DNA of 64,000 bases, taken from assembly GCA_002425225.1 (NCBI GenBank), contig DILV01000015.1:1-64000 (forward strand), read 5' to 3'. Below are positions 30,942 to 34,441 of the stretch, piece after piece (within the stretch, counting starts at the first letter, position 1; each line of letters opens with the position of its first letter). The notes beneath the pieces are model-generated. The model was not told where the DNA came from and ran no database searches. It saw only the letters and a program-made list of their open reading frames with translations. Made by a program: the position numbers and the translations under genes. Source of the DNA: Thiothrix sp. UBA5583. Its GTDB lineage: Bacteria > Pseudomonadota > Gammaproteobacteria > Thiotrichales > Thiotrichaceae.

Positions 30942-33791
30942 TCAGTCGCCAGCACCCAGCACCGCAGAAAAGCCAGGGAGAACTCTCTCTCCCAACACTA
31001 CTCGAAACCCCAGAATGGGGTCCCGGAGGTCGGGATGAGTCCCGACACGAAAAGCGCACCGCACGAGGTCGGTAGAATTGTACCAGGAACCGCCGCGAAG
31101 TATTTTATAATCAACAATATCAAGAGAATCACGCTCAAGCTCCTGTTCTTCCCATTGGTCATACTTGAAATCAGTACTATTGGCATCCTTGCCCCAACGA
31201 CTACTCGTCCACTCCCAGACATTGCCTGTCATATCATGTAAACCAAATGCCTTCCCCGCCGGAAACATTCCCACCGCTGAAGTTTGACCTATCTTGCCAT
31301 CATCATAATTCCCCATGCTGGCGTCGGCCTCATCCCCCCACGCATAACGCAGGCCCTGTTGGCCACGGGCAGCATATTCCCATTCAGCTTCAGTTGGCAG
31401 ACGGATTTGCGGCCTATCTACCACCCCTTCAGGTTTAATATCCGCCAGCAAATCATTCAGCCAAACGCTGTACACCAATGCCTCGAACCACGACACACCA
31501 ACCACAGGATGGTTATCAAGCCCCAACTTCCTATCCTTCCAGTAATAAGGCTGAAAACGCTTCCTATCGTTTTTCAGCCAGTTTTTATACGCATCACGGC
31601 TTTTCTCTGACCATGTCTCCAGCAACTTTTCGCCGACCATTTCCCCCGCAAGCCACAAACCGGCAGCTTCCGGCAGTTTTTCATGCCAAAAGGCTTTATC
31701 CTCATACATGCCTGCTTCGATGAAACAGCGATATTGGGCGTTTGTCACCGGATAACGGCTGATAAAGAATTCGGGCAAGGTTACATCATGGGCTGGCTTT
31801 TCGTCGTTGTAGCCCTCATCCCCTGTTGTCCCCATTTGGAATGTTCCCGCTGGAATCTTTGCCCAGTCAATGTCAGGGATAGTGTGTTTCTGCTCGCCCC
31901 GTTGACGCATGACAGGCAAACCGTTGACTTTTTTTACCGTCACACCGGGGCGCGGATCACCTATATCACTCAGGATGCGCCCCGCTCCGGCACGTTCCTG
32001 CATGTCGGCTTCGCCATTGCGCATCAAATCCTGCAAACCCTGCTGGACTTTGCGGGTCATGCGGTTGCCCAGTACCGTCACACCCACGTCATTCAAAGCT
32101 TCGCCCGCAAACAGGATATGGCCTGACTCACCAATGGCAAGCAATTCTTCCAGAATGCCGTTGGCTTTTTCAGGGGCAGTGTTCACCACCGACATGACCC
32201 CCAGCGACAGCAGCAGGGTTTCTTTCCAGTGTTCCGGTTGTTGCAGCAGTTCAGGGATGGTTTCACACAAGGCTTTTTCAGGCTCCAGTGCCAGACCGAA
32301 ACCGGCCAAATATTCCTCAAACGTCAGGTGGATGAAGCCATACTGTCGATGGCCTTTTTCGATCAGCAGGTTGGAGTATTTATGGACAGAATCAAGGAAA
32401 CCCTTTGACTGCTCATCTGCCTCCTTACGGGTATAACCATCTTCCTGATAGTAATCCAGCAGGTAATCACGCATGGCGTCTTCGTGGATCAGACCACCTT
32501 GCGGATTGGTTTTACGCAGATGCAAGGCCAGTTTCGCCAGCAAACGTTGGGTCGGGGAAAAGTCGATTTCCGGGCCGATAGGTTGTTTGTCGAGGCTACG
32601 GCTGCGGTTCCAGCTACGCAGCAGCGTTCCCATGTACAGGTTGTAAAGTTCTACCCGACGGTGTGGCAGCGTCACTCCTTGCCGCTTGATCAATGCCAAC
32701 AAGGATGCCAGTAACGGGTTGCCCGACAAACGCCGGATGCCGGTATTATTGCCAATCACTTGCAACAGGGATTGCAGTTCGTTTTCCGCCAGACGCTGGG
32801 CGTTTTCATGGCTCTCACCACCCGCCCATGCCAATTCAGCCGCCAGCGTAAATGCCTGGAAAAACCGCCCGATTTCCTCCTCATTCCAGTCATTCAGGGC
32901 AACTGTCTGCCAGCGCGGGTCACGCAGCGGGTAATCGCGGTAGCCGACAAACCGGCTGGTGACAACCATGCGGTTGCCGCTTTGTTGCTGGCTAGCCGGG
33001 TCAGGAATCCACGCCCGCACGAAGTCTTCTACTTGTGAGACGACCTTACCCCGGTTATTACCAACCTCATCCAGCCCATCCATCAGCACAACCGCTTTTT
33101 GCTGCTGGAGTGCTTCGGTGAACAAGCGTTGCAGCTTGTCCCTGTCCAGTTGGGTACGCTTGCACTGGAAATAGTCAGGCAGGAAATTTTCAAAACTGAT
33201 GCTGTCGCGCTCCAGTTCCTTGCTGTAGGCATTCAGGGGCAACAGGATGGGCAACGGCGCGTTGTCACGTTGCGCCAAACCTAATGCGAGCCGTTTCATG
33301 CTGGTGGATTTGCCGCTACCGGGGTCGCCGAGGATCACCAATGCCTGCTGGTTGTTGATCCATTGTTCAACGGGCAACGCAGAGGCTTCAGCTTTCAGGA
33401 TTTCCTGTTCCAGTGCATCAGGGTCACTGCCTGCCATTGCCTTGGCTCCACAATAATAGCGCCCGCCCAAACGATGCCATGACTCGCCATCCGGCGTATC
33501 CAGCCGGGCACGGAGTGGCACATACACCGCTTCCAACGTAACGCCGCTGGAGCCTTTCACCGCTTCGGCAATGCCATCAATTCCCTTGAAATCCAGATAT
33601 TTGTAGGTTTCAACGATATAACGGCGATATTCAGCAAGCTGCTGCTGCAATTCCTCATCGGTAAACTGCGGGCTGGCCTGATCACCGTAGAGGTTGATCA
33701 CCAGTTTTTCGATGGTGTTCTTGTCACCCTGCACGAAATCCTGATCGACTTCGACCTTGCCTTTGAAGAGCGTGTTAGCCTTGTCCAGCAT
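30942..33791 (-). CDS. NACHT-domain NTPase with C-terminal FGE-like (C-type lectin fold) variable domain
   Basis: About 949-residue NLR-like STAND protein. The N-terminus has an FVQGDK motif similar to peptides in effector-associated proteins. The NACHT Walker A is GDPGSGKST near residue 155, and Walker B VVLMDGLDE near 235. A helical middle follows with FIHLTFEEYLAG. A formylglycine-generating-enzyme/sulfatase-modifying-factor fold then starts near IPAGTFQMG and includes LPTEAEWEYAARG and GNVWEWTSSRW. The final part (30977-31098) is a hypervariable region copied from a template repeat at 34320-34441. The ATG at 33791 is preceded by GGTGGGAAAG; a GTG at 33800 is the alternative. It overlaps the upstream small membrane gene. 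Likely a phage or ligand sensor with a diversified binding face; inferred. Confidence 0.9.
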   Translation of the reverse strand: MLDKANTLFKGKVEVDQDFVQGDKNTIEKLVINLYGDQASPQFTDEELQQQLAEYRRYIVETYKYLDFKGIDGIAEAVKGSSGVTLEAVYVPLRARLDTPDGESWHRLGGRYYCGAKAMAGSDPDALEQEILKAEASALPVEQWINNQQALVILGDPGSGKSTSMKRLALGLAQRDNAPLPILLPLNAYSKELERDSISFENFLPDYFQCKRTQLDRDKLQRLFTEALQQQKAVVLMDGLDEVGNNRGKVVSQVEDFVRAWIPDPASQQQSGNRMVVTSRFVGYRDYPLRDPRWQTVALNDWNEEEIGRFFQAFTLAAELAWAGGESHENAQRLAENELQSLLQVIGNNTGIRRLSGNPLLASLLALIKRQGVTLPHRRVELYNLYMGTLLRSWNRSRSLDKQPIGPEIDFSPTQRLLAKLALHLRKTNPQGGLIHEDAMRDYLLDYYQEDGYTRKEADEQSKGFLDSVHKYSNLLIEKGHRQYGFIHLTFEEYLAGFGLALEPEKALCETIPELLQQPEHWKETLLLSLGVMSVVNTAPEKANGILEELLAIGESGHILFAGEALNDVGVTVLGNRMTRKVQQGLQDLMRNGEADMQERAGAGRILSDIGDPRPGVTVKKVNGLPVMRQRGEQKHTIPDIDWAKIPAGTFQMGTTGDEGYNDEKPAHDVTLPEFFISRYPVTNAQYRCFIEAGMYEDKAFWHEKLPEAAGLWLAGEMVGEKLLETWSEKSRDAYKNWLKNDRKRFQPYYWKDRKLGLDNHPVVGVSWFEALVYSVWLNDLLADIKPEGVVDRPQIRLPTEAEWEYAARGQQGLRYAWGDEADASMGNYDDGKIGQTSAVGMFPAGKAFGLHDMTGNVWEWTSSRWGKDANSTDFKYDQWEEQELERDSLDIVDYKILRGGSWYNSTDLVRCAFRVGTHPDLRDPILGFRVVLGERVLPGFSAVLGAGD
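30977..31098 (-). repeat. DGR variable region (VR)
   Basis: 122 bases inside the 3' end of the NACHT-FGE gene, encoding the lectin-fold face from RGGSWYNSTD to NPILGFRVV-like sequence (here DPILGFRVVLGE). Against the template repeat it differs at 17 positions: 16 at template-strand adenines and one T-to-A near the 3' end. The substitutions change 11 codons (Asn to Tyr, Leu, Val, Thr, Asp, Leu, Asp, Pro and Ile; Ile to Phe; Arg to Gly) and leave one silent. The 3' difference removes a TGA stop present in the template. Confidence 0.93.
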
Positions 33792-34125
33792 CTTTCCCAC
33801 CGTTTACCGTTTTGTTGCCCAAGGTAAGATCACCACCTACCAGAACATCTTTACGGAAGGTTGTCGTTGTCACATTGCCAGCCTGGGCTTTATCTGACTG
33901 CTTACCTTCGACAAAATGCCAGACCGCCGCAAAAAATGTCAGAATTACACCCAAAATTCCCAAACCTTTAGCAAGCATTTCCTCAATCTTGAGAATCCGC
34001 TCCATCCCCGCCGGATCAAGTGCAAGAACATGCTGGGTCAAGGCAAAGATTTCATCCGAGAAATGGAAAGCCACCCCTACCAATAGCGCCAATACCCAAA
34101 TAACCGCAATCAACCTCCAAACCAT
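33775..34125 (-). CDS. Small two-helix membrane protein, probable partner of NACHT-FGE sensor
   Basis: 116-residue protein. A first hydrophobic helix starts at the N-terminus (LIAVIWVLALLVGVAFHF). An amphipathic segment and a second helix (GLGILGVILTFFAAVWHF) follow. The tail has FRKDVLVGGDLTLGNKTVNGG, resembling the FVQGDK motif at the start of the downstream NACHT protein. AAAGGAG lies at good spacing. It overlaps the NACHT gene by 17 bases, so the two are translationally coupled. It is not like the DGR accessory protein Avd. A membrane effector role is inference. Confidence 0.7.
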   Translation of the reverse strand: MVWRLIAVIWVLALLVGVAFHFSDEIFALTQHVLALDPAGMERILKIEEMLAKGLGILGVILTFFAAVWHFVEGKQSDKAQAGNVTTTTFRKDVLVGGDLTLGNKTVNGGKDAGQG

Positions 34126-34319
34126 GACAACACTCCTTTCTTCGCCTCCTTCAAAAAACCCCGCACCGCGCCACCCAAGACAGGATGCGGAGTCACTTCG
34201 CTATTTGACCGGAGGGCAAACCGTCGCGATCCGGGTCGGGGCAAGCTGGCTATTGGTCATTGCACCACCGTCGGCTATCCGTGGATACACCGCTCTGCCG
34301 AATGCAAGCCGTTGACTAT
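34126..34319 (-). ncRNA. Candidate 3' spacer of the template-repeat RNA
   Basis: 194 bases between the template repeat and the small membrane gene without a credible gene. On the minus strand it contains a weak stem (CCGCA/TGCGG) followed by GGTTTTTTG near 34150-34190, a possible end of a template-repeat transcript. DGR systems require a spacer RNA downstream of the template. The role here is inferred. Confidence 0.3.
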
Positions 34320-34441
34320 GGAGAACTCACTCTCCCAACACTACTCGAAACCCCAGATTGTTGTTTCGGTTGTTGGGATGATTCCTGTTACGAATAGCGC
34401 ACCGCACGTTGTCGGTAGAATTGTTCCAGGAACCGCCGCGA
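34320..34441 (-). repeat. DGR template repeat (TR)
   Basis: 122 bases matching the variable region of the NACHT-FGE gene. Read on the minus strand it would encode an Asn-rich version (SWNNSTDN, then NRNHPNNRNNN and LGFRVV). This richness in AAC/AAT codons is typical of DGR templates. It has 31 adenines on that strand, and 16 of them are replaced in the variable region. It ends in an in-frame TGA that the variable region lacks. It lies just past the dsr operon terminator and is not part of a gene. Confidence 0.9.

Follow-up and report, generated by a model that had tools for sequence, protein, structure and literature searches.

A diversity-generating retroelement locus with an intact template and no detected reverse transcriptase on a predicted NLR-like sensor gene of Thiothrix sp. 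UBA5583

A 64,000-nucleotide stretch of Thiothrix sp. UBA5583 (contig DILV01000015.1, positions 1 to 64,000; hereafter the window) carries a diversity-generating retroelement (DGR) locus on a gene for a predicted NLR-like sensor with NACHT and FGE domains. The template repeat (TR) and the predicted fold of the adjoining RNA are intact. Neither a reverse transcriptase (RT) nor Avd was found in the assembly, so the locus is likely no longer rewritten; we give this reading a probability of about 0.68. The source genome of the window (G000; 3.55 Mb in 42 contigs, listed as 100% complete with 0.2% contamination) was compared with its sister species G007 and with the relatives G002, G004, G008, G028, G030, G031, and G045. 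There is one genome per species, and comparisons of the variable repeat (VR) are between species. VR and TR are both read on the minus strand.

The repeat pair

30977..31098, minus strand: VR; begins at the last base of codon 901 in the target gene and extends into codon 942
34320..34441, minus strand: TR, which lies upstream of the target and shares 89% identity with its G007 counterpart
30942..33800, minus strand: target gene, encoding a 952-amino-acid NACHT-FGE protein, a predicted NLR-like sensor

VR and TR align without gaps over 122 nucleotides (nt) with 17 differences, 16 of which are at TR adenines; our recomputation agrees with the preliminary description of the sequence on these counts. 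The 16 changes (six A to T, five A to C, and five A to G) fall among 31 available adenines, which is a strong bias (hypergeometric P = 1.1 × 10−10). At the other template bases, all 33 G and all 30 C are unchanged, and a difference is seen at 1 of 28 T. In the target's frame, AAC or AAT makes up 10 of the 40 complete TR codons. Complete randomization of the TR adenines would give about 10^15.5 protein variants, with a stop possible at one adenine codon. We compared eight TR/VR pairs of this cassette family (from G000, G002, G004, G007, G008, G028, G030, and G045), and the bias is present in seven of them at P = 4 × 10−14 to 5 × 10−8 and weak only in G030 (7 of 10 differences, P = 4 × 10−3). 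Given this bias here and in the seven other genomes, the identification of 30977-31098 and 34320-34441 as a DGR VR/TR pair, which had been proposed before, stands on the sequences themselves.

The 17th difference had been taken for the difference that DGR repeats usually have near their 3' ends, and this turned out to be wrong. At TR position T113 the VR has an A, so that the in-frame TGA of the TR is AGA in the VR and the target is extended by 14 residues (a stop-loss). The usual difference, of the IMH/IMH* (initiation of mutagenic homing) type, sits just beyond the 122 nt (TTCTCC-CTG in the VR vs. TTCTCC-ATAG in the TR) and is seen in 8/8 pairs. At the equivalent of T113, the VRs of G002, G004, G007, G008, and G045 have TGA, both repeats of G028 read AGA, and in G030 a TGA of the VR stands opposite TGC of the TR.

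A search of G000 with the TR gave two places, both within the window. No further adenine-biased pair (P of 10−4) was found at seven stretches around the FGE genes of G000 that lie outside the window (L089-L095) or at C24:64001-80000 (L096), and the rest of G000 was searched with this TR only. At the same threshold, 13 of 33 scanned sources have adenine-biased pairs, the window among them.

The template RNA

34152..34319, minus strand: RNA with a predicted fold, adjoining the TR on its 3' side, with a terminator-like stem and T6 at its end
34461..34490, minus strand: conserved block upstream of the TR (TTTGCAAAA ... CAGATT), putatively promoter-like

The TR lies upstream of the target and runs into an RNA element of about 165 nt that is kept in eight genomes. 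Its consensus fold (alignment A2) has 42 pairs in 5 helices, and 16 pairs are changed on both sides in at least one sequence. This covariation was reached by 0 of 500 shuffles and was lost when the pairing partners were slid; one alignment served both to derive the structure and to test it, which works in its favor, and related sequences can beat such shuffles. The locus thus has the structured RNA 3' of the TR that is a feature of DGRs, as a prediction with covariation. A covariance model of the element scores 198 bits at 34151-34328 in the window. There is no Rfam family for it at E = 0.1 and no match to it in plasmids. Five of the eight genomes, including G000, retain all 42 pairs (42/42), G028 retains 39, and G030 retains 35; G045, which has an intact RT, retains 33 of 42. 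The promoter-like block is clearest in G000, G007, and G004, weaker elsewhere, and not evident in G030.

In Bordetella phage BPP-1, RT-Avd is recruited by a folded spacer that lies 3' of the TR (PMC12875486). By analogy, we read the TR RNA element as a probable equivalent of that spacer, here with its own end instead of running into the RT gene.

Reverse transcriptase and Avd in the genome and the family

The locus had been described as if it were a working DGR, which this assembly does not support: we found no RT of any kind, no cognate RT, and no Avd in its 3.55 Mb. The RVT_1 family (PF00078) had zero matches (in the relatives search it was detected in 50 of 76 genomes, with DGR-type RTs among the matches), and the cognate RT, with the G004 protein as the query, had no match at E = 10. 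Avd was found neither by protein search at E = 0.01 nor by Pfam bAvd, which was found in 6 of the 8 genomes searched. The expectation of a DGR RT in the genome or its relatives failed for G000 and was borne out in three relatives: G004, G008, and G045 have a cognate RT and Avd at the same kind of locus, in the complete order TR-RNA, target with VR, RT, and Avd. The G004 Avd passes the NCBIfam cut-off.

The RNA covariance model matches in 9 of 63 family genomes, and an order-level repeat returned the same 63 and the same 9. Just three of the nine have an intact RT of at least 70% identity (G004, which is the query itself, G008, and G045), and six have no intact cognate RT. G028 has fragments of RT and Avd, and the cognate RT was not found in G000, G002, G007, G030, or G031 (for G031, completeness is 83%, and the search beside its RNA gave no TR). 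Some RNA-bearing genomes have other DGR-type RTs (G007 has two intact ones, at 30-38% identity), and more distant Avd-like genes occur in G002 and G007 and not in G000. In such genomes as G007 and G002, these other-type RTs and Avd-like genes could in principle act in trans. Among the matches counted in plasmid records (5,000 at most) and in phage records, none to the cognate RT reaches 60% identity (the best are 47.7% and 39.5%), and viral contigs, which were scanned for close RT relatives only, gave one pattern match that was not confirmed.

Several further DGR RTs of the family are incomplete, either truncated or matching the intact RT only piecewise: L097 7915-8501 (G007), L098 9237-10066 and L099 8262-8687 (G004), L074 6503-7297 (G002), L061 5635-5871 (G028), and L065 7140-7445 (G036). 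The TR/VR pairs beside the damaged RTs of L097, L098, L074, and L061 retain adenine bias. Also, L144 (G015:C1:815292-815482) holds two pieces of an Avd gene that are 90-91% identical to the G004 Avd, in a genome that the TR-RNA model does not match; they are probably a fossil of the same cassette.

The probable former place of the reverse transcriptase

30831..30850, minus strand: leader hairpin, with no RT behind it in G000
30512..30808, minus strand: BrnT toxin gene, with a probable GTG start, at the place of the relatives' RT (Pfam BrnT, 83.9 bits; cut-off 34.5)
30308..30511, minus strand: BrnA-like antitoxin gene (CopG_antitoxin, 25.5 bits, under the cut-off of 28)

In G004 and G008, the hairpin GCCGCG-TAG-CGGCG-ACGCGC ends seven bases before the start codon of the RT. 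It has a single match in the window even if two mismatches are allowed and, among 138 loci, it matches only in copies of the window, G004, and G008. We read the hairpin at 30831..30850, behind which BrnT and not an RT begins, as a likely deletion scar. BrnT has no match at E = 10−5 in the loci of the compared relatives.

The G007 locus lies between NrfD and a YkuD-family gene (by Pfam). It shares TR and target with G000 (86% protein identity), the hairpin is present in a variant form, and there is no cognate RT. The stretch behind its hairpin matches the start of BrnA over 28 nt (score 36, reached by 0 of 1,000 shuffles; this is the best of 810 stretches, and the next scores 30). Because G007 has the same locus with a BrnA-like relic in the same place, the RT-Avd module was probably replaced before G000 and G007 split.

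The target protein and its neighbor

33775..34125, minus strand: 116-amino-acid protein with two hydrophobic helices by sequence, between the TR RNA and the target

The earlier description of the target as a NACHT-FGE, NLR-like protein is well supported. Both domains have Pfam scores above the cut-off, and the predicted structure matches NLRC4 (NLR inflammasome proteins) and the solved DGR target TvpA. As in NLR-like/STAND proteins, a central NACHT NTPase is combined with a helical region and a C-terminal sensor domain, and the VR is placed in a C-type-lectin-like fold. Residues 941-952, which are within the 14-residue extension from the stop-loss, have a pLDDT (the model's per-residue confidence score) below 50. 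No PADLOC model matches at the locus.

The 116-amino-acid protein has no match in Pfam or PADLOC and five related proteins besides itself. A relative lies between the RNA and the target in G004, G007, and G028 and was not found in the G008, G002, and G045 loci at E = 10−5. The C-terminal motif of this protein is found again at the N-terminus of the target.

A TIR domain (PF13676) is also present in 10 of 14 relatives of the target (P0021-P0034, 48-57% identity; neighbors in the 43 to 58% range excluded), whereas the target has a short N-terminus and a separate membrane-protein neighbor instead. Elsewhere in G000, L089 (G000:C32:111829-115878) has two adjacent large FGE open reading frames (876 and 911 codons, 25-26% identity to the target) with no adenine-biased repeat nearby. 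At 53891-54202 of the window, a 121-codon open reading frame holds just the last part of an FGE domain.

Timing of rewriting

The split between G000 and G007 is old, as third codon positions of the target are only 62% identical; the TR is 89% identical and the RNA region is 92.5% identical. The two TRs differ from each other at five non-A sites, and at all of them (5/5) the VR of each genome agrees with the TR of that genome. The 26 adenine sites that they have in common are mutated in both genomes (10 sites), in G000 only (6), in G007 only (5), or in neither (5). That each VR tracks its own TR and that 11 of the 26 adenine sites are mutated in only one genome argue for mutagenic copying after the split and not for plain gene conversion, and we infer that VR rewriting continued after the split from G007. 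If the RT was lost before the split and rewriting went on after it, then an RT probably acted in trans for a time. As the stop-loss in the VR was not overwritten from the TR, rewriting in G000 has probably stopped.

In G007, a second target (L100 11648-11769, G007:C59) has a VR that resembles the TR of the NrfD-side locus. Many of its differences are at adenines and some are not; it might be a remote or older VR.

We propose the following history. While an RT was present, the TR RNA would have been copied, with random bases opposite its adenines, into 40 codons near the end of the target, and this copying would have varied the likely ligand face of the FGE (C-type-lectin-like) domain. The RT-Avd module would then have been replaced before the G000/G007 split, and BrnT/BrnA would now be in its place. 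Both lineages would have been rewritten afterwards, with an RT probably in trans for a time, until rewriting in G000 stopped and the sensor was kept in its present form. The sensor may signal through the neighboring two-helix membrane protein via their common terminal motif.

Is the locus still rewritten?

The locus might still be active, if an RT-Avd that was missed by the assembly, or that is present in part of the population, rewrites the VR in trans. We consider this unlikely but far from negligible. The VR and TR of G000 differ at just 1 of 91 non-A sites, and loci without an intact cognate RT are not more drifted (G000 1/91, G007 0/93, G002 1/91, G028 1/87, and G030 3/81) than those with one (G004 0/94, G008 2/93, and G045 0/88): the totals are 3/362 vs. 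2/275 (Fisher P = 1.0), or 6/443 with G030 included (P = 0.72). Also, the RNA fold is intact, and Dore et al. (2024, PMC10907252) describe apparent activity in trans and, within single aggregates, RT variants of which some are intact and others disrupted. On the other side, the assembly has no RVT_1 of any kind and no Avd, the stop-loss in the VR was not reset, the plasmid and phage RT matches listed are all below 60% identity, and the scan of viral contigs for close RT relatives confirmed none. The absence of any RT or Avd, together with the uncorrected stop-loss, leads us to favor a sensor that is frozen now. Several observations weigh against this reading or parts of it. The lack of excess drift argues for a very recent loss or an RT in trans and counts against a long-frozen sensor, and an intact TR RNA without decay is a poor fit to a long-dead system. 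The absence of RT and Avd comes from one 42-contig assembly, and an RT could lie in a gap or on an uncaptured replicon. The identical 116-amino-acid protein was counted on 6 contigs (the longest of 234,564 bases), so other assemblies with this locus's protein exist. The BrnA-like relic in G007 is short (a 28-nt core), and two independent RT losses, instead of one before the split, are possible. A sigma-70/terminator pattern scan flagged neither the promoter nor the terminator of the TR RNA, so these calls rest on conservation and fold. No stable hairpin lies within 60 nt behind the VR in G000 (z = 0.29), nor was one found there in G007 or in the complete relatives G004 and G008 (z = −1.1 in G028). 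Finally, the sensor function and the signaling through a membrane protein are themselves predicted.

Two other explanations fare much worse. That the DGR is complete in cis is very improbable: this arrangement exists in G004, G008, and G045, but in G000 RT and Avd are neither next to the VR nor elsewhere in the assembly, and BrnT/BrnA fills their place. An ordinary duplication or gene conversion, with an adenine bias from chance or selection, would account for two similar repeats 3.3 kb apart; we give it next to no chance. The bias has P = 1.1 × 10−10 in this pair and recurs across the cassette family, and gene conversion would reset the adenine sites too. We reject plain duplication or gene conversion on the combination of adenine bias and a VR that tracks its own TR at interleaved non-A sites.

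A further reading is more speculative, and we hold it as doubtful: in this family, the lasting unit would be the sensor plus its template RNA, and RT-Avd would be a removable mutator that arrives or acts in trans, re-diversifies the receptor, and is lost again, locking it. If so, gain and loss of genes would act as the on/off switch of diversification, in the manner of an affinity-maturation phase that can be reversed.

Comparison with known systems

DGR-diversified NACHT sensors and degenerate DGR loci have already been published, so this kind of system is known from the reports on Thiohalocapsa, Nostoc, and Treponema. In the literature searched, we found no paper joining "diversity-generating retroelement" and "Thiothrix," no locus that keeps an intact RNA but lacks an RT in a genome where no RT is found, and, mostly at the level of listings, no TR RNA that ends by itself ahead of its target. 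The large survey of Roux et al. (2021, PMC8144416) takes in RT genes that have a repeat no more than 1 kb away; because it starts from RT genes, a locus with sensor, template, and RNA and without an RT would escape its listing. With the RNA covariance model, such loci can be looked for even where an RT is absent. The locus also makes a question testable: whether loss of the mutator locks a bacterial NLR-like receptor or rewriting goes on in trans.

In Treponema, strains retain targets after loss of the DGR core (PMC4891356); in T. denticola (TvpA structure 2y3c) both TR and RT are gone, whereas G000 has kept TR and RNA. Nostoc all3226 (PMC7517822) resembles our locus in its remnant TR-VR homology with no RT nearby. 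It differs in that G000 has an intact RNA element behind the TR and that rewriting is placed after a species split. BPP-1 (PMC3240598, PMC12875486) shares the structured spacer 3' of the TR and the IMH/IMH* difference at the 3' end. However, avd and brt flank its TR, and its VR has a hairpin behind it, whereas the TR RNA of G000 has its own terminator-like end at a distance from the RT place and the search for a VR hairpin was negative. Thiohalocapsa PB-PSB1 (Dore et al., 2024, PMC10907252), also a sulfur bacterium, is described as having DGR-diversified NACHT/STAND sensors with a C-terminal CLec (C-type lectin)/FGE domain, RT-less loci, VRs that match a TR at non-A sites, and apparent activity in trans. 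There, each class retains one complete locus, whereas no RT of any class was found in G000. In addition, the TR RNA of G000 precedes its target, and the place of the RT is taken by a toxin-antitoxin pair and not by an array like that of miniature inverted-repeat transposable elements (MITE-like).

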